This document shows, in pieces, positions 159-9,229 of a DNA stretch of 64,000 nucleotides (the stretch's first letter is position 1; the number at the start of each line of letters is the position of its first letter). The notes under the pieces are model-generated. The model was not told where the DNA came from. It saw only the letters and a program-made list of their open reading frames with translations, and did no database searches. The DNA is taken from the NCBI GenBank assembly GCA_017303795.1, contig JAFLBR010000004.1, positions 62,001 through 126,000 of the forward strand, read 5' to 3'. This stretch comes from Cytophagales bacterium. GTDB lineage: Bacteria > Bacteroidota > Bacteroidia > Cytophagales > Cyclobacteriaceae. The position numbers and the translations under genes were made by a program.

Positions 159-791
159 ATGAAAAAACTAGTATTAATGATGGTGGCAGGTATTATGCTG
201 GCAGCCTGTACGCCTAAGAACCCCGAAGGAGATAAAGCAGAAACAACAGATAGTGCAACCGTTGGCACAGCCGAAGGAACCGAAGTAGCGCTTAACACCG
301 CAGCTTCAAAAATTATCTGGACAGGCAGTAAAGTATCAGGCTCGCACACAGGCGCTGTTACACTTAAGTCTGGTGCGTTGCTTGTAAAAGACGGTGCAGT
401 TACCGGTGGTAACTTTGTAGCCGACCTGGGCACTATTACCAATACCGATATGCAAGGTGAGTACAGCGATAAGCTGGTAGGTCATTTAAAGTCGCCCGAC
501 TTTTTTGACATTGCTCAATTCCCAGAAGCCACTTTCGAAATTACCAGCGTAACTGCAGGAACTGAAGCGGGCAGCGTTACTATCTCAGGCAACCTGACTA
601 TGCGCGGTGTTACCAAGAACATTACGTTCCCGGCAACGGTAACAGAAGCTACTGAAACTTCTGCAAAAGCTTCTGCCGATTTTAACATTTTGCGCGAAGA
701 CTGGGGTTTGGTATATACCGGTATGGCCGATGATCTAATCAGCAAAGAGTTTAACCTTAAAATAGAATTGGTAGCCGGAGTAGGCGCTTAA
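159..791 (+). CDS. YceI-like domain lipoprotein
   Basis: This is a 210-residue lipoprotein of the YceI family, whose members are lipocalin-like beta-barrels that bind isoprenoid-type lipids in the periplasm. The ATG at 159 was chosen because it gives a classic lipoprotein signal with lipobox LAAC and Cys17; an in-frame ATG at 120 would add 13 non-signal residues. The YceI domain runs from about residue 45 to the end, with typical blocks such as SPDFFDIAQFPEATFEI and GNLTMRGVTKNITFP. A linker rich in Thr, Ala and Glu (residues 20-45) separates anchor and domain. It stands alone between two terminators. The ligand is unknown. Confidence 0.9.
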   Translation: MKKLVLMMVAGIMLAACTPKNPEGDKAETTDSATVGTAEGTEVALNTAASKIIWTGSKVSGSHTGAVTLKSGALLVKDGAVTGGNFVADLGTITNTDMQGEYSDKLVGHLKSPDFFDIAQFPEATFEITSVTAGTEAGSVTISGNLTMRGVTKNITFPATVTEATETSAKASADFNILREDWGLVYTGMADDLISKEFNLKIELVAGVGA

Positions 792-813
792 TTCTCTCAG
801 GTTATTTGAATTT

Positions 814-846
814 AAAAAACCCATTGCGAAAGCGATGGGTTTTTTT
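814..846 (+). terminator. Rho-independent terminator after the yceI-like gene
   Basis: A 9-bp stem (ACCCATTGC with GCGATGGGT, one G-U pair), a GAAA tetraloop and a run of seven T. It lies 23 bases after the stop codon. Confidence 0.9.
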
Positions 847-951
847 GTTGGGTGCCTTAATTCTTAGTGTGTTGTGTGCGCGTATTGTGACTTGGCTTAG
901 TGGCAGGAGTTCGAAGTGTGTCACTGTCCCGTCACACCAAACTTCTTGAAA

Positions 952-1005
952 ACCTAACTACAAATTTACACTGAACCCCACCATTGATTCTGCTTTTTGT
1001 TGGCA
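952..1005 (-). other. attC-like cassette recombination site (degenerate)
   Basis: Read on the minus strand, TGCCAAC lies just after the stop of the RDD gene and GTTAGGT lies 40 bases further on, matching the two outer boxes (RYYYAAC-like and GTTRRRY) of an integron attC site. The interior shows little inverted symmetry, so this copy is either degenerate or a cassette-array edge. Its TGCCAAC box is the exact complement of GTTGGCA at the start of the same cassette. Confidence 0.5.
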
Positions 1006-1016
1006 CCTGCATGGCC

Positions 1017-1622
1017 TTACCACAAATTTATTCTTGGGTCAAAGAGGATCATGAATATTGCCAAAGAAATCACAGAAAGCAAAAGAGTTAGTATAGTTTG
1101 TCTGTCAAATTTCGACACTTTTATTTCAGTCAAAATTAATTCTGGATTCGAGGCAGGAACATCGACCAACATTGTTCCTGCAACAATGTCACCAAGACGT
1201 CTTTTTGGATTTACTAAAATTAGTATTACTTCAATTGGCCAAACTGGCCCTATTAAATTTCTTACGAAGCACTGAATTTTGGTAGCAGTCTCATTTGTCT
1301 TTACGTCCAATACCTTATAACCCAACTGTCGATGAACTACGCTTTGTCCGCCAAAAAAATCTTTGTTAAAGAGTGCAATCATCATTAAAGTATATGGAAC
1401 CAGAGAAATTAAATCTATCCACTCAAAGGTGAAGTGAGACTGGCCCCTGAATCCCATTGTTAGAATCATTGTAACAGCGAGAAGTGGAAAAAACACTGAC
1501 AGTGTATACCACATTTCTAACGTTAAAGACTTCACTCTTTTGTTCCAATTTAAGAACCAAAAGTCACTGTTTAGATACAGTCTTACGACCCGGTTAAACA
1601 TTAAAAACTTAAGTAATCTCAT
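1017..1622 (-). CDS. RDD-family membrane protein in a cassette-like unit
   Basis: A 201-residue membrane protein of the RDD family, a group often linked to transport but without an assigned reaction here. Two hydrophobic segments (about residues 37-58 and 69-86) and a C-terminal one (about 180-197) are visible. The family blocks are GGQSVVHRQLGYKVLDV and NPKRRLGDIVAGTMLVDV. The start at 1622 (MRLLKF) was preferred to the ATG at 1667, because the latter lies inside the attC-like site. The gene sits alone between two attC-like sites in the same orientation as its neighbour, as in an integron cassette. Codon use is AT-richer than in flanking core genes. Confidence 0.7.
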   Translation of the reverse strand: MRLLKFLMFNRVVRLYLNSDFWFLNWNKRVKSLTLEMWYTLSVFFPLLAVTMILTMGFRGQSHFTFEWIDLISLVPYTLMMIALFNKDFFGGQSVVHRQLGYKVLDVKTNETATKIQCFVRNLIGPVWPIEVILILVNPKRRLGDIVAGTMLVDVPASNPELILTEIKVSKFDRQTILTLLLSVISLAIFMILFDPRINLW

Positions 1623-1652
1623 AGTTTGTCGTACTGTCCACGGCCAAGTTGC

Positions 1653-1742
1653 TGCCAACGTTCGCATATAAAGCGTGCCGGCAGTCCAAATTAATAATTA
1701 ATCATCAAACTCTGCCTGCATGCTTTATATGCATTGTTAGGT
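1653..1742 (-). other. attC-like integron recombination site (complete)
   Basis: A 90-bp site. On the minus strand it opens with ACCTAAC (RYYYAAC), then GCATATAAAGCATGCAGGCAG-type left arm at 1713-1733, an AT-rich loop, the matching right arm at 1664-1684 (19 of 21 bases pair) and ends with G/TTGGCA. Length, box order and imperfect arms fit attC sites of integron gene cassettes. The first box lies 4 bases after the stop of the 1747-2655 gene. Confidence 0.65.
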
Positions 1743-1746
1743 GAAG

Positions 1747-2655
1747 TTATGGTTTACCGCCATTGGCTAAATGAGGATACATCTCCCGTATCCTTTGTCT
1801 TTTTTCCTCTGTGTCCGCTTTGTCAAGCATTCTTTGATAAATATCGGATTTCAGGTAATAAGTTCCGGCTCCCATATAAAAATACTCAGATATAAAATCA
1901 ACTGATAATTCCAGTATAATTTTCATTTCGACTAATCCTTCATGCTCGAACAAAATTACCGTGTCGTCCAACGGATTATCATCGTGCTTAATAAAATGTT
2001 CTTTAAAGTTCCCTGGAATTTTACCTATGTCGTCAACAAATTTATAGAGAGGGTCGAGCACACGTATTTGAAAAAGTGAGTCGTTGTGTTTGTTACTAAA
2101 CATGGTTTCCACGACCTTTTGATAAAGTAATGACAAACTGTGAGAATGTGGAACTTCTGTTTTAGTTAAGGAAAGATACGCTTTGCAGAATACTTCAATA
2201 TAGAAAGTAAGGTTGTGAAATATAGCTGGTGATAGTTCACTTAATAGTCCCGAACTGTGTGAATCGATGTCATAGACTCTTTCATCCTTAACTACTTCGA
2301 TAGCTTTTTCAAAAAGAAGGGATATAACTAGATATTGATTTAAGCAAGAGTTTACAGCTCGATTTGAAGTAGCTTTCTTCCTTGGAACTAATCCGGAAGT
2401 GCTTATCCATACGTAACCAAACTCGCTTTCTGAGATATGAAGTTTTCTAAGTGAGTCGTAATGAAAATACTTTTTTGTAAAATCCTCGTATCTAACTTTT
2501 AATGATTCAAGTAAAGAAATAAATAAGTCACGCTCAGAAAACTTGAAGGTATAAGCGAATGGTTCGGATTTAGAAATTCGATTAAGTAACTCAGTCAAAT
2601 GACTTTGCTTGGATATTAGGGCGTATTCTTGTCCGTTTTCAGTTTTGAATTCCAT
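1747..2655 (-). CDS. Uncharacterised protein in a cassette-like unit
   Basis: A 302-residue soluble protein that I do not recognise. It appears mostly helical and has no signal peptide or membrane segment. A stretch at about residues 145-190 (FYIEVFCKAYLSLTKTEV followed by His-Ser-His and a Leu-rich helix) recalls helical HEPN-type domains, but the catalytic R-x4-6-H motif is not evident, so this is only a hint. The C-terminus is charged. The gene starts 35 bases after a GTTAGGT box and stops 4 bases before ACCTAAC, so it fills a cassette exactly. Cassette genes of this kind are often defence or stress genes; no function can be assigned from sequence alone. Confidence 0.7.
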   Translation of the reverse strand: MEFKTENGQEYALISKQSHLTELLNRISKSEPFAYTFKFSERDLFISLLESLKVRYEDFTKKYFHYDSLRKLHISESEFGYVWISTSGLVPRKKATSNRAVNSCLNQYLVISLLFEKAIEVVKDERVYDIDSHSSGLLSELSPAIFHNLTFYIEVFCKAYLSLTKTEVPHSHSLSLLYQKVVETMFSNKHNDSLFQIRVLDPLYKFVDDIGKIPGNFKEHFIKHDDNPLDDTVILFEHEGLVEMKIILELSVDFISEYFYMGAGTYYLKSDIYQRMLDKADTEEKRQRIREMYPHLANGGKP

Positions 2656-2689
2656 TCAGGGGAAACACGATTCGTTCAAACATAATTTC

Positions 2690-2730
2690 ACCTAACATTT
2701 GGCTTTAATCACTGAATGGCTTATAGCCAA
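2690..2730 (-). other. attC-like site, 3-prime half
   Basis: On the minus strand GTTAGGT (2696-2690) is preceded by an inverted repeat TTGGCT...AGCCAA (2730-2725 and 2704-2699). This matches the L-prime and R-prime half of an attC site and marks the upstream edge of the cassette holding the 1747-2655 gene. I could not identify a clear outer box on the far side. Confidence 0.45.
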
Positions 2731-2815
2731 TACATATGTAAGTTATAAGAAACTCACCCTACCAAACAAATCGTTTCCAGAACTATATTTTTTGCGAACT
2801 CACTACAAGGCTGTC

Positions 2816-2920
2816 ATCGCGGTTGGGTAACCTGATTTAGATTGCCGAGGTCAAGACTTCAAACCCACACCGCGATCCCGGTGAAGTATTGGTGAATGAA
2901 CTATGAAAAGTTTTTCATAG
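2816..2920. other. Intergenic stem-loops of unknown role (2656-2961 has no gene)
   Basis: The 306-base stretch 2656-2961 holds no convincing gene. Besides the attC-like half it contains a 12-bp stem with one bulge between ATCGCGGTTGGG (2816-2827) and CCCACACCGCGAT (2864-2876). An alternative hairpin CACCG/CGGTG (2868-2883) shares bases with it. A near-perfect palindrome lies at 2901-2920 (CTATGAAAAG / TTTTTCATAG). It does not fold as a tRNA by eye. Confidence 0.35.
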
Positions 2921-2938
2921 TAAACTTGTGCCTACACT

Positions 2939-2974
2939 AAACCTATAAGGTTTCAGAAACCTTATAGGTTTTTT
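2939..2974. terminator. Hairpin with T-run overlapping the end of the ATP-grasp gene
   Basis: Arms AAACCTATAAGGTT and AACCTTATAGGTTT pair perfectly over 14 bp around a 5-base loop and are followed by TTTT on the plus strand. The stop codon of the minus-strand gene lies within the right arm. As a terminator it is better formed for plus-strand transcripts than for the gene it overlaps. Confidence 0.5.
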
Positions 2975-4002
2975 CCCGCTTTCAATTTCTTAAACGAATT
3001 ATAGATTCGTTTGCCTTCTGCAAAAGAAAGATAAGGCACACCGCGGGTATGGTTTTCTTTGCTTACGCGATAGAGATTTTTCCAATGGGTAATAATGGTA
3101 CCGATGCCTTTTATAAGTGATGCGCCTGGATGATAGATATGCGCAGGCTCTGCCCCACAACCATTCAACTCCATAATTTTTATGTTGCCTGTCGCAAGGT
3201 CGGCTTCAGAAGCGCACCGCAAATCAAACCGGCCAAAATAAAAACCGTCTATCTGTTTACTGATGGCATCGAATGAAGCTGAAAATTGTTCGGTAATTAA
3301 ATGATTGCTGTTAATAAACGTAGTGCCCAAACAATGATTACCGATTGAAACCAGTTCAATTTTTTTTCCTGGTGCAGGAACATCGTGAAGTTGCGCAGCA
3401 TACGCCTGCTTCAAGGTGTCCCATTGAATTTTTGCGCGGTCTTTCTCCAGAATCAATTGCTGCAAAGTTTTGCTTCCATCTCCGGTAACGGATAAAAACT
3501 CTTTTTCCGTAATAGAGTTTACAAACCCATTGGGCTGCGAAGGAAACCGAACGTAAAACACGCCATATTCTAAAGGCAGGTTTACAAACTCCTGCGCTAT
3601 AAAATCAATCTTAATTTCAGCAAGGTATTGATCAACGTCTTCCGCACTTTTGATTTTACGCACCATCCAGCCGCGCTCGCCCATGTCGGGCTTAAAAATT
3701 ACCGGCAACTGAAGTCCGTTGGTTTGCAGCGCATCCAAAACCTGTTGGCGTGTGGTGGGCAATTTAATTAAAATGGTTTTCGGCTTAACTGAATCAGGCA
3801 CGAGATTTAGGACTTCGTATTTGCTTTCGCCCATCATACCTCCGGTTAGAATAGATGGATTCGAAGCCGAGAAATAAAACAGACTTCGTTCACGCAACGC
3901 ATACCAAAGCCACATTATAAACACCGGTGCTTGTATAATGCCAAAGGGCCAATACTCCCAACTGCGGAGTTTGATAAAAAAATTACTGCGTAAAAAAGAC
4001 AA
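2962..4002 (-). CDS. ATP-grasp domain protein (D-Ala-D-Ala ligase-like)
   Basis: A 346-residue protein with an ATP-grasp fold, the fold of carboxylate-amine/thiol ligases. The N-terminus carries a hydrophobic stretch (about residues 20-37, rich in Trp and Phe) that may associate with the membrane. ATP-grasp signatures are VIFKPDMGERGWMVRK (about 100-115), GFYFGRFDLRC and the metal-binding IMELNGCGAEPAHIYHP near 285-301. It is distantly related to D-alanine-D-alanine ligase but lacks the family's N-terminal region, so a true Ddl role is unlikely. The gene begins 3 bases after the stop of the DinB-family gene, so they are probably co-transcribed. Substrate unknown. Confidence 0.75.
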   Translation of the reverse strand: MSFLRSNFFIKLRSWEYWPFGIIQAPVFIMWLWYALRERSLFYFSASNPSILTGGMMGESKYEVLNLVPDSVKPKTILIKLPTTRQQVLDALQTNGLQLPVIFKPDMGERGWMVRKIKSAEDVDQYLAEIKIDFIAQEFVNLPLEYGVFYVRFPSQPNGFVNSITEKEFLSVTGDGSKTLQQLILEKDRAKIQWDTLKQAYAAQLHDVPAPGKKIELVSIGNHCLGTTFINSNHLITEQFSASFDAISKQIDGFYFGRFDLRCASEADLATGNIKIMELNGCGAEPAHIYHPGASLIKGIGTIITHWKNLYRVSKENHTRGVPYLSFAEGKRIYNSFKKLKAGKNL

Positions 4003-7705: not shown

Positions 7706-9229
7706 ATGAACAAGAAAGTATTGCTGATGATTCTGGATGGTTGGGGAATAGCCAAAAACACCAAAGTGTCGGCCATTGATAGTGCCAAAACTCCTTACAT
7801 TAATTCACTCTACAAAAAGTATCCACATAGCACGCTGGAGGCTTCCGGTTTGGCCGTTGGTTTACCAGCCGGACAAATGGGTAACTCTGAAGTAGGGCAC
7901 ATGAACATTGGTGCAGGCCGAATTGTGTATCAGGATCTGGTGCGCGTAAACAAAGCTGTTGAAGAAAAAGAACTTGATACAAACCCGGTGTTGGTTGAAG
8001 CTATTCAATATGCCAAAAAGAATAACAAGGCTTTTCATCTGATTGGTTTGGTATCAGACGGTGGTGTGCACTCACACCTGGAACACCTGAAAGGAATTAC
8101 CACCATTCTTAATAACAATGGGTTAAAGCAAGTATTCATACATGCCTTTACGGATGGCCGCGATACTGACCCTAAAGGCGGATTGAATTACCTCACAGAT
8201 TTGAACAATCATCTTACCAAAACCACAGGCAAAATTGCCAGCGTGGTAGGTCGCTATTATGCTATGGATCGCGACAAGCGTTGGGAACGGGTTAAGCTTG
8301 CGTACGATCTGATGGTGCACGGAACAGGCGAAGCAACAACCGATGTACTTAAAGCCGTTTCAAAATCGTATGAGGCTAATGTTACCGATGAGTTTATAAA
8401 ACCCATTGTAGTAACCGATCAAAATCAAAAACCTTTAACTACAATTCAGGAGGGCGATGTAGTGTTGTGTTTCAACTTCCGCACCGATCGCGGTCGCGAA
8501 ATTACACAAGCCCTTACCCAGCAGGATTTTCACGAGCAGAACATGTATAAGCTCAACCTGCATTATATCACACTCACCAATTATGACGATTCGTTTAAAG
8601 GTGTGAACGTGATTTTCGATAAAGACAATCTGGAAAACACGCTGGGCGAGATTGTAGCTAAAGCAGGAAAGAAACAGATTCGCATTGCTGAAACAGAAAA
8701 GTATCCGCACGTTACATTCTTCTTTTCAGGTGGCCGCGAAGAAGCATTTACAGGCGAATCGCGGATCATGTGTCCATCGCCCAAAGTGGCTACGTACGAT
8801 TTACAACCCGAAATGAGTGCGAATGACATCAAAGACAAAATCATTCCGGAACTGAATAAAAAAGAACCCGATTTTATCTGTCTAAATTTTGCCAACCCCG
8901 ATATGGTGGGCCACACAGGCGTTTTCGAAGCTGCTGTAAAAGCCTGCGAAACGGTTGACCAATGCAATGAAGCTGTAACGGAAGTTGCGCGCAAAAACGG
9001 GTACTCTATTATCATCATTGCCGATCATGGCAATGCCGATATGATGATTAACGAAGATGGAACGCCCAACACCGCACACACCACTAACCTGGTGCCGGTT
9101 ATTCTGGTGGATGATCAGTACAAAGGCAAACTTAAGTCGGGCAAGCTGGGCGATCTGGCTCCTACAATACTTAAGTTAATGGGCATACCCATCCCTAAAG
9201 AAATGAGCGGTAATGTATTGATTGATTAA
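7706..9229 (+). CDS. gpmI: 2,3-bisphosphoglycerate-independent phosphoglycerate mutase
   Basis: A 507-residue glycolytic enzyme that interconverts 3- and 2-phosphoglycerate using two Mn ions and a phospho-serine. It belongs to the alkaline phosphatase superfamily. Seen are the first metal motif LMILDGWGI, the catalytic serine in GQMGNSEVGHMNIGAGR, HAFTDGRDTDP, DRDKRWERV and the metal ligands in IADHGNADMM and AHTTNLVPV. Length equals the family norm. The ATG at 7706 was preferred to a TTG at 7697. It is followed after 4 bases by a lipoprotein gene. Confidence 0.97.
   Translation: MNKKVLLMILDGWGIAKNTKVSAIDSAKTPYINSLYKKYPHSTLEASGLAVGLPAGQMGNSEVGHMNIGAGRIVYQDLVRVNKAVEEKELDTNPVLVEAIQYAKKNNKAFHLIGLVSDGGVHSHLEHLKGITTILNNNGLKQVFIHAFTDGRDTDPKGGLNYLTDLNNHLTKTTGKIASVVGRYYAMDRDKRWERVKLAYDLMVHGTGEATTDVLKAVSKSYEANVTDEFIKPIVVTDQNQKPLTTIQEGDVVLCFNFRTDRGREITQALTQQDFHEQNMYKLNLHYITLTNYDDSFKGVNVIFDKDNLENTLGEIVAKAGKKQIRIAETEKYPHVTFFFSGGREEAFTGESRIMCPSPKVATYDLQPEMSANDIKDKIIPELNKKEPDFICLNFANPDMVGHTGVFEAAVKACETVDQCNEAVTEVARKNGYSIIIIADHGNADMMINEDGTPNTAHTTNLVPVILVDDQYKGKLKSGKLGDLAPTILKLMGIPIPKEMSGNVLID

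Follow-up and report, generated by a model that had tools for sequence, protein, structure and literature searches.

Extrahelical bases are present in class 1 attC sites, where they can also be read by eye from the sequence. The VCR sites of the Vibrio superintegron, which belong to IntIA, are cassette sites repeated in large arrays, each roughly 120-130 nt long, and Xer recombinases work on double-stranded dif. According to PMC7790495, extrahelical bases of the L box are a feature of the canonical attC site, and it is the additional domain I2 of IntI that docks extrahelical bases, a domain that Xer lacks. In the IntegronFinder 2 paper (PMC9024848), a CALIN is defined by two or more attC sites, as called by the published attC model, and by the lack of an integrase.

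The locus described here is a two-cassette array in a window of 64 kb (the whole stretch of DNA that was analysed, located on contig C19 of the source genome), and it was originally predicted to consist of CALIN-like integron cassettes. The cassette structure and the attC-like site of that prediction stand, but the assignment to a canonical integron is not supported, there being no IntI over the cut-off in the source genome and, in most sites, A.C mismatches and no extrahelical bases. The window probably holds a satellite array of two mobile cassettes that belongs to a Bacteroidota integron-like system using BR, a tyrosine recombinase sister to IntI and found upstream of related arrays. From the sequence comparisons, the main arrays and the recombinases of this system are best seen as located elsewhere in the source genome.

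The two-cassette array and its locus in congeners

Both cassette genes lie on the minus strand, and the array is flanked by YceI-like and ATP-grasp-like genes (Table 1). In minus-strand sense, cassette A spans from GTTAGGT (2690-2696) to ACCTAAC (1736-1742) and cassette B from GTTGGCA (1653-1659) to TGCCAAC (999-1005), so that the complementary pairs TTAGGT...ACCTAAC and TTGGCA...TGCCAAC, on which the original prediction was based, are indeed seen at the cassette ends. The box at 952-958, also read at that time as a cassette end, turned out to sit in the loop of the degenerate site at 898-986, as judged from covariance model R2 (see below) and from the alignment with contig C11. The boxes are of the R-box type (RYYYAAC / GTTRRRY), and in the wider site family the variable box positions often deviate from RRRY. 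Over their first 16 positions the two ends of cassette A agree at 15, with position 11 as the sole mismatch; the repeat search reported these ends as 25 nt at 84%. The ends of cassette B match less well, and position 11 is A opposite C in both cassettes. A palindrome, AAACCTATAAGGTTTC...GAAACCTTATAGGTTT, is present in both the window array (2939-2971) and the C11 array (L005, about 3917-3952), with 94% identity over 36 nt.

The 302-aa protein of cassette A had no match over the cut-off in Pfam and none in NCBIfam. Neither did the 216-aa protein of cassette B match anything in these two collections, which leaves its earlier RDD label without support there; by eye, from its motifs, it looks RDD-like. 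A later start is likely for the cassette B gene, because its first ATG (1667) falls within the attC-like site.

Table 1. Features of the array, with positions and strand as in the window
Feature	Position	Strand	Basis
Complete insertion separating the YceI and ATP-grasp genes	851..2977		Comparison of congener loci
Degenerate terminal attC-like site, ~130-nt type	898..986	-	R2, 30.3 bits, model positions 20-110; aligned to C11 homologue
Cassette B 3' TGCCAAC box	999..1005	-	Sequence, end comparison
Cassette B gene, 216 aa as longest ORF, membrane protein	1017..1667	-	ORF
Cassette B 5' end, GTTGGCAGCAACTTGG...	1632..1659	-	Sequence, end comparison
attC-like site separating cassettes A and B, 90 nt, with a short loop	1653..1742	-	Scan, fold, R2
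Cassette A 3' end, complementary to the 5' end except position 11 (A.C)	1736..1751	-	End comparison
Cassette A gene, 302 aa	1747..2655	-	ORF
Cassette A 5' end, GTTAGGTGAAATTATG...	2669..2696	-	Sequence, end comparison
attI-like candidate, a hairpin that follows the leader and precedes the first cassette box	2697..2730	-	Sequence reading
Conserved leader, promoter-like by eye	2726..2793	-	Model R1, alignment

The original prediction looked to related strains for the insertion or absence of the units, and such a pattern is observed: among eight congener loci, four lack the units, three carry other genes and one is uninformative. In G159, G178, G164 and G154 the interval between YceI and ATP-grasp is an empty stretch of about 70 bp, in G155 and G585 it holds a 134-aa gene, and in G170 it holds genes of 134 aa and 832 aa; G166 has no YceI neighbour. 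In the occupied loci different genes follow a common leader of about 60-90 bp, and the window leader likewise precedes different genes elsewhere in the source genome and in congeners. A second, orthologous locus of G155 and G585 shows 87% identity over 403 nt of flank, leader and hairpin; the similarity ends at the GTT/ATT box, and the genes downstream are unrelated. At a third locus G155 has a leader with a 94-aa gene, and about 180 bp take the place of both in G585. The far boundaries of the arrays look degraded rather than site-specific.

The leader itself has a narrow distribution. With E <= 0.01 as the limit, model R1 detected it in six of the 62 genus genomes: four copies are in the source genome, five in G155, four in G585 and two in G170, while G178 and G156 each have a single weak copy. 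The segment 2704-2792 is 89% identical to G155 and G585. A DNA search found the leader only in the source genome among 148 family genomes, and with these two counts a family-wide element is ruled out. The exact leader pattern occurs in two Cyclobacteriaceae MAGs only among GTDB contigs, a search in which exact matching misses variants. Folding of 2690-2780 gave a z of only -1.7. When six cassette proteins from the window and C11 were compared by tblastn with all loci collected up to that stage, only the window's and C11's own copies were found; therefore these six share no gene with the other arrays.

The site family and the cassette ends

The attC site predicted between the two cassettes was recovered by several measures as an attC-like hairpin. 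Its stem of 21 nt has 90% complementarity, and in an AAC...GTT stem-and-box scan it is the top candidate of the 64 kb, with a score of 52 versus 34.5 for the runner-up. Its DNA fold is better than that of shuffles on both strands (z -4.7 for minus, -5.2 for plus), and the inner arm carries A.C at position 11 in this fold. In a search of 41 loci (633 kb), R2 gives it 36.5 bits (E 3.4e-5) on the minus strand versus 2.3 bits on the plus strand. It is a weak member of the family with a short loop, since the array sites score 29.8-134.8 bits and most of them lie above it.

A 95% identical copy of this site is located at C11:886-969, where it adjoins different genes and where position 11 is a G-C pair instead of A.C. 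A second C11 site (1637-1768) reaches 84.3 bits, and below the window and C11 sites the next R2 matches in the 41 loci have only 14 bits. The C11 type-2 site folds no better than shuffles (z -0.7), and the third C11 cassette fails the end-complementarity comparison. Considering this failure together with the weaker ends of cassette B and the degenerate site at 898-986, the window array may be decaying. It is not an isolated remnant, since R2 sites occur on eight further contigs of the same genome (C7, C9, C11, C12, C16, C18, C20 and C21). Two contigs of the source genome end exactly at an attC-like site (C20:356233-356363 and C12:444500-444630), and contig ends of C7, C9 and C18 lie within 2 kb of one; the main arrays have therefore probably been broken by assembly. 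Ends of an insertion sequence also interrupt arrays and coincide with contig breaks (C10:1-125, C19:1-125 and the start of C11; loci L027, L028 and L005).

R2 is a covariance model built from 20 aligned BR-adjacent sites, excluding those of the window and C11, and it represents repeats of about 130 nt that stem scans detected downstream of BR genes. Double changes are present in all 17 pairs of the inner stem and 91% of the cells are paired, versus 33-43% when the arms are slid, a covariation that is inflated by the selection of training sites through the stem scan. At E <= 1e-5, with eight candidates scored per genome, R2 matches are found in at least 194 of 395 class genomes and at least 111 of 196 genera. 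Twenty regions selected for having matches contain 93 of them at E <= 0.001; the strand is uniform within each region, and six of the 20 hold BR-type genes.

Two features characterize the arms of these sites. First, in a set of 125 sites the arms mostly pair without gaps or extrahelical bases; visual inspection shows a single extra 3'-side base in two sites of L134. Second, position 11 of the inner arm is A.C in 106 of the 125 sites (17 of the 19 that served for training and 89 of the 106 others), a count to be read with the preference of R2 for A and C in the inner-arm columns of this position, the outer-arm position being outside the model. The spacers measure 4 and 5 nt in 56 of the 125 sites, and 4 and 8 nt in 42. 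The set leaves aside single-site loci (the window, L006, L005, L029, L170 and L173) and two truncated R2 matches (L135:1-78 and L175:12427-12529).

Where consecutive sites are less than 3.5 kb apart, the interval between them was taken as a cassette, and 91 cassettes could be read in this way from the 125 sites at 26 loci. In 78 of them the 7-nt ends are exactly complementary. The four variable end positions match on average in 3.69 of 4 cases, versus 1.60 when permuted (maximum 2.08 in 5000 permutations) and 1.76 within one site. Complementarity extends to about position 17, with the exception of position 11, which matches in none of the 91 cassettes: A stands opposite C in 73, opposite G in 13 and opposite A in four, with one other. 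With ends that are complementary within a cassette, each cassette could restore its complete site on circularization, as the original prediction proposed for the two units in the window. In the comparison with a single distinct class 1 cassette, the ends of the latter matched over 13 positions and had no position-11 mismatch; extended end complementarity is thus ruled out as a property unique to the R2 family.

Two explanations that dispense with cassette recombination have to be considered against this pattern. The hairpins could be intergenic RNA elements, for example terminators or attenuators, with the recombinase as an unrelated neighbour, and they do lie between genes, confined to one strand and equipped with covarying stems. 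However, it is the two 7-nt boxes of a cassette that match, and not the two of a hairpin, a match that no terminator needs; seven Rfam matches up to E 5 were found within 700-3000 and none exceeded the gathering score; and the sites come after BR genes in 13 of 14 loci, which makes this explanation very unlikely. The units could alternatively be transposon-like, with terminal inverted repeats and a transposase acting in trans, given that inverted repeats reaching 16-17 nt form the cassette ends and that insertion sequence ends lie inside arrays of the source genome. Yet a transposase needs common ends, whereas here the ends vary between cassettes and it is the intervening hairpin that is conserved; we consider this explanation hardly credible.

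The cargo of the arrays offers some further observations. In the L083 array (G155:C22), an ORF of the group II intron type reverse transcriptase and pieces of an IS110-like transposase lie behind a cassette gene; some group II introns are known to target attC sites. Two small cassette ORFs of L080 (G585:C3) resemble, by eye, a toxin-antitoxin pair of the nucleotidyltransferase/HEPN type. G170 has related subtilisin-like proteases in a recombinase-adjacent array (L132:6024-7967) and in the satellite locus orthologous to the window (L056:8934-11432).

The recombinase adjoining the arrays

The arrays behind BR genes have a constant orientation. In 13 of the 14 loci that have both BR and sites, every listed site lies downstream of the gene on the same strand, which amounts to 52 of 54 sites; L179, with a partial BR gene, is the exception. 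Three BR loci have no listed site (L030, L131 and L137), and in these the contig ends within 0.9 kb on that side. A GTT box and a hairpin follow the 3' ends of several BR genes, and other BR genes have no clear hairpin. In two species the BR gene adjoins an smc-like gene (L029:3339-4370 and L132:9009-10139).

BR is without the IntI insertion, as reflected in the distance between the KDR-like and LRH motifs, which is 58-59 residues in BR (23 distinct rows), 64 in Xer (two rows) and 99-101 in IntI (five rows); in this count two rows had no match, and L031 was measured from an incorrect start. The 23-row tree places BR as a single clade (93/90) next to IntI (100/99), the three Xer rows lying outside, although long branches weaken this tree, as the tool warned. 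The tree omits the near-duplicates L117, L122 and L128 as well as L127, rows under 180 aa and six later BR loci. Among the top NCBIfam matches of BR, just below its cut-off, is NF040815 ('site-specific tyrosine recombinase/integron integrase', XerA-like). Its relatives of solved structure include XerC-like, XerA and IntI4 chains, the IntI4 match falling in two separate stretches.

No Phage_integrase or BR match was obtained on the window contig, in agreement with the original prediction of an array without a nearby integrase; the BR genes of the source genome are on C16 and C24. BR is present in 42 of the 62 genus genomes and the leader in six, so the two do not track each other, and the presence of BR is not borne out as a predictor of the leader.

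The remaining alternative is an ordinary CALIN, that is, cassettes of a canonical IntI, leftover or off-target, with attC sites within the known diversity. The R boxes, the central spacer and the cassette logic are all integron-like, and true IntI does exist in two of 148 family genomes and one of 395 class genomes. Such rare genes of the class are located at G331:C40 (L053), G025:C13 (L038) and G080:C64 (L039), the last of which has a strong AAC...GTT hairpin of another type at 8028-8156. But the integron integrase sought in the source genome was missing, in that no protein exceeded the cut-off (265) of the canonical IntI model TIGR02249, and the same result was obtained in each of a set of six genomes, four of which carry strong leader copies; canonical IntI is accordingly ruled out as the driver in the six. 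Moreover, no R2 site was found near the IntI of G025, G080 and G331, which rules out these loci as the origin of the site type. Four regions with class 1 integrons had none either, and in 13 of 14 loci the R2 sites stand behind BR genes. An ordinary CALIN therefore appears improbable.

Proposed mechanism and relation to known systems

In the integron-like system preferred here, we infer that the cassettes move by recombination. BR would act in trans and bind one folded strand of a site with two arms of about 16 bp, cut in the GTT box and excise the cassette as a circle. The cassette would then be inserted at the GTT adjoining the leader hairpin, an attI-like position, where a promoter in the leader could express it. 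The A.C mismatches at position 11 may serve as landmarks that replace the extrahelical bases.

A broader question is whether these arrays represent an integron lineage extending through the Bacteroidota class, with folded single-stranded sites that lack extrahelical bases, a recombinase that lacks I2 and symmetric A.C mismatches read at position 11 of both arms, and with its origin either in an early branch or in convergence. For this proposal the chances seem evenly balanced. We found no such system in the open-access literature; with subscription journals and preprints mostly outside that search, a prior description is possible. With its site model matching about half of the sampled class genomes, such a cassette system would amount to a large unseen reservoir of mobile genes, and its arrays break assemblies, as at the two contigs that stop exactly at a site. 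A sister clade without the insertion, beside sites without extrahelical bases, would make the evolutionary question directly testable.

Three known systems can be set against these arrays. BR resembles XerC, XerD and XerA in its missing I2 insertion and in the near-cut-off match to NF040815, but differs from them in that it groups with IntI and adjoins cassette arrays. The VCR sites are alike in being cassette sites of about 120-130 nt in large arrays. The closest likeness is to integrons and CALINs, although BR lacks the insertion that holds the I2 helix in IntI, the BR gene precedes its array and shares its strand, the R2 arms are mostly without extra bases and have A.C at position 11, and R2 sites are absent near the true IntI loci examined. 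On the other hand, both have tandem same-strand cassettes of one ORF or two, a GTT box with a complementary AAC box, a folded site with a central spacer, and a first cassette that follows a leader which may act as promoter.
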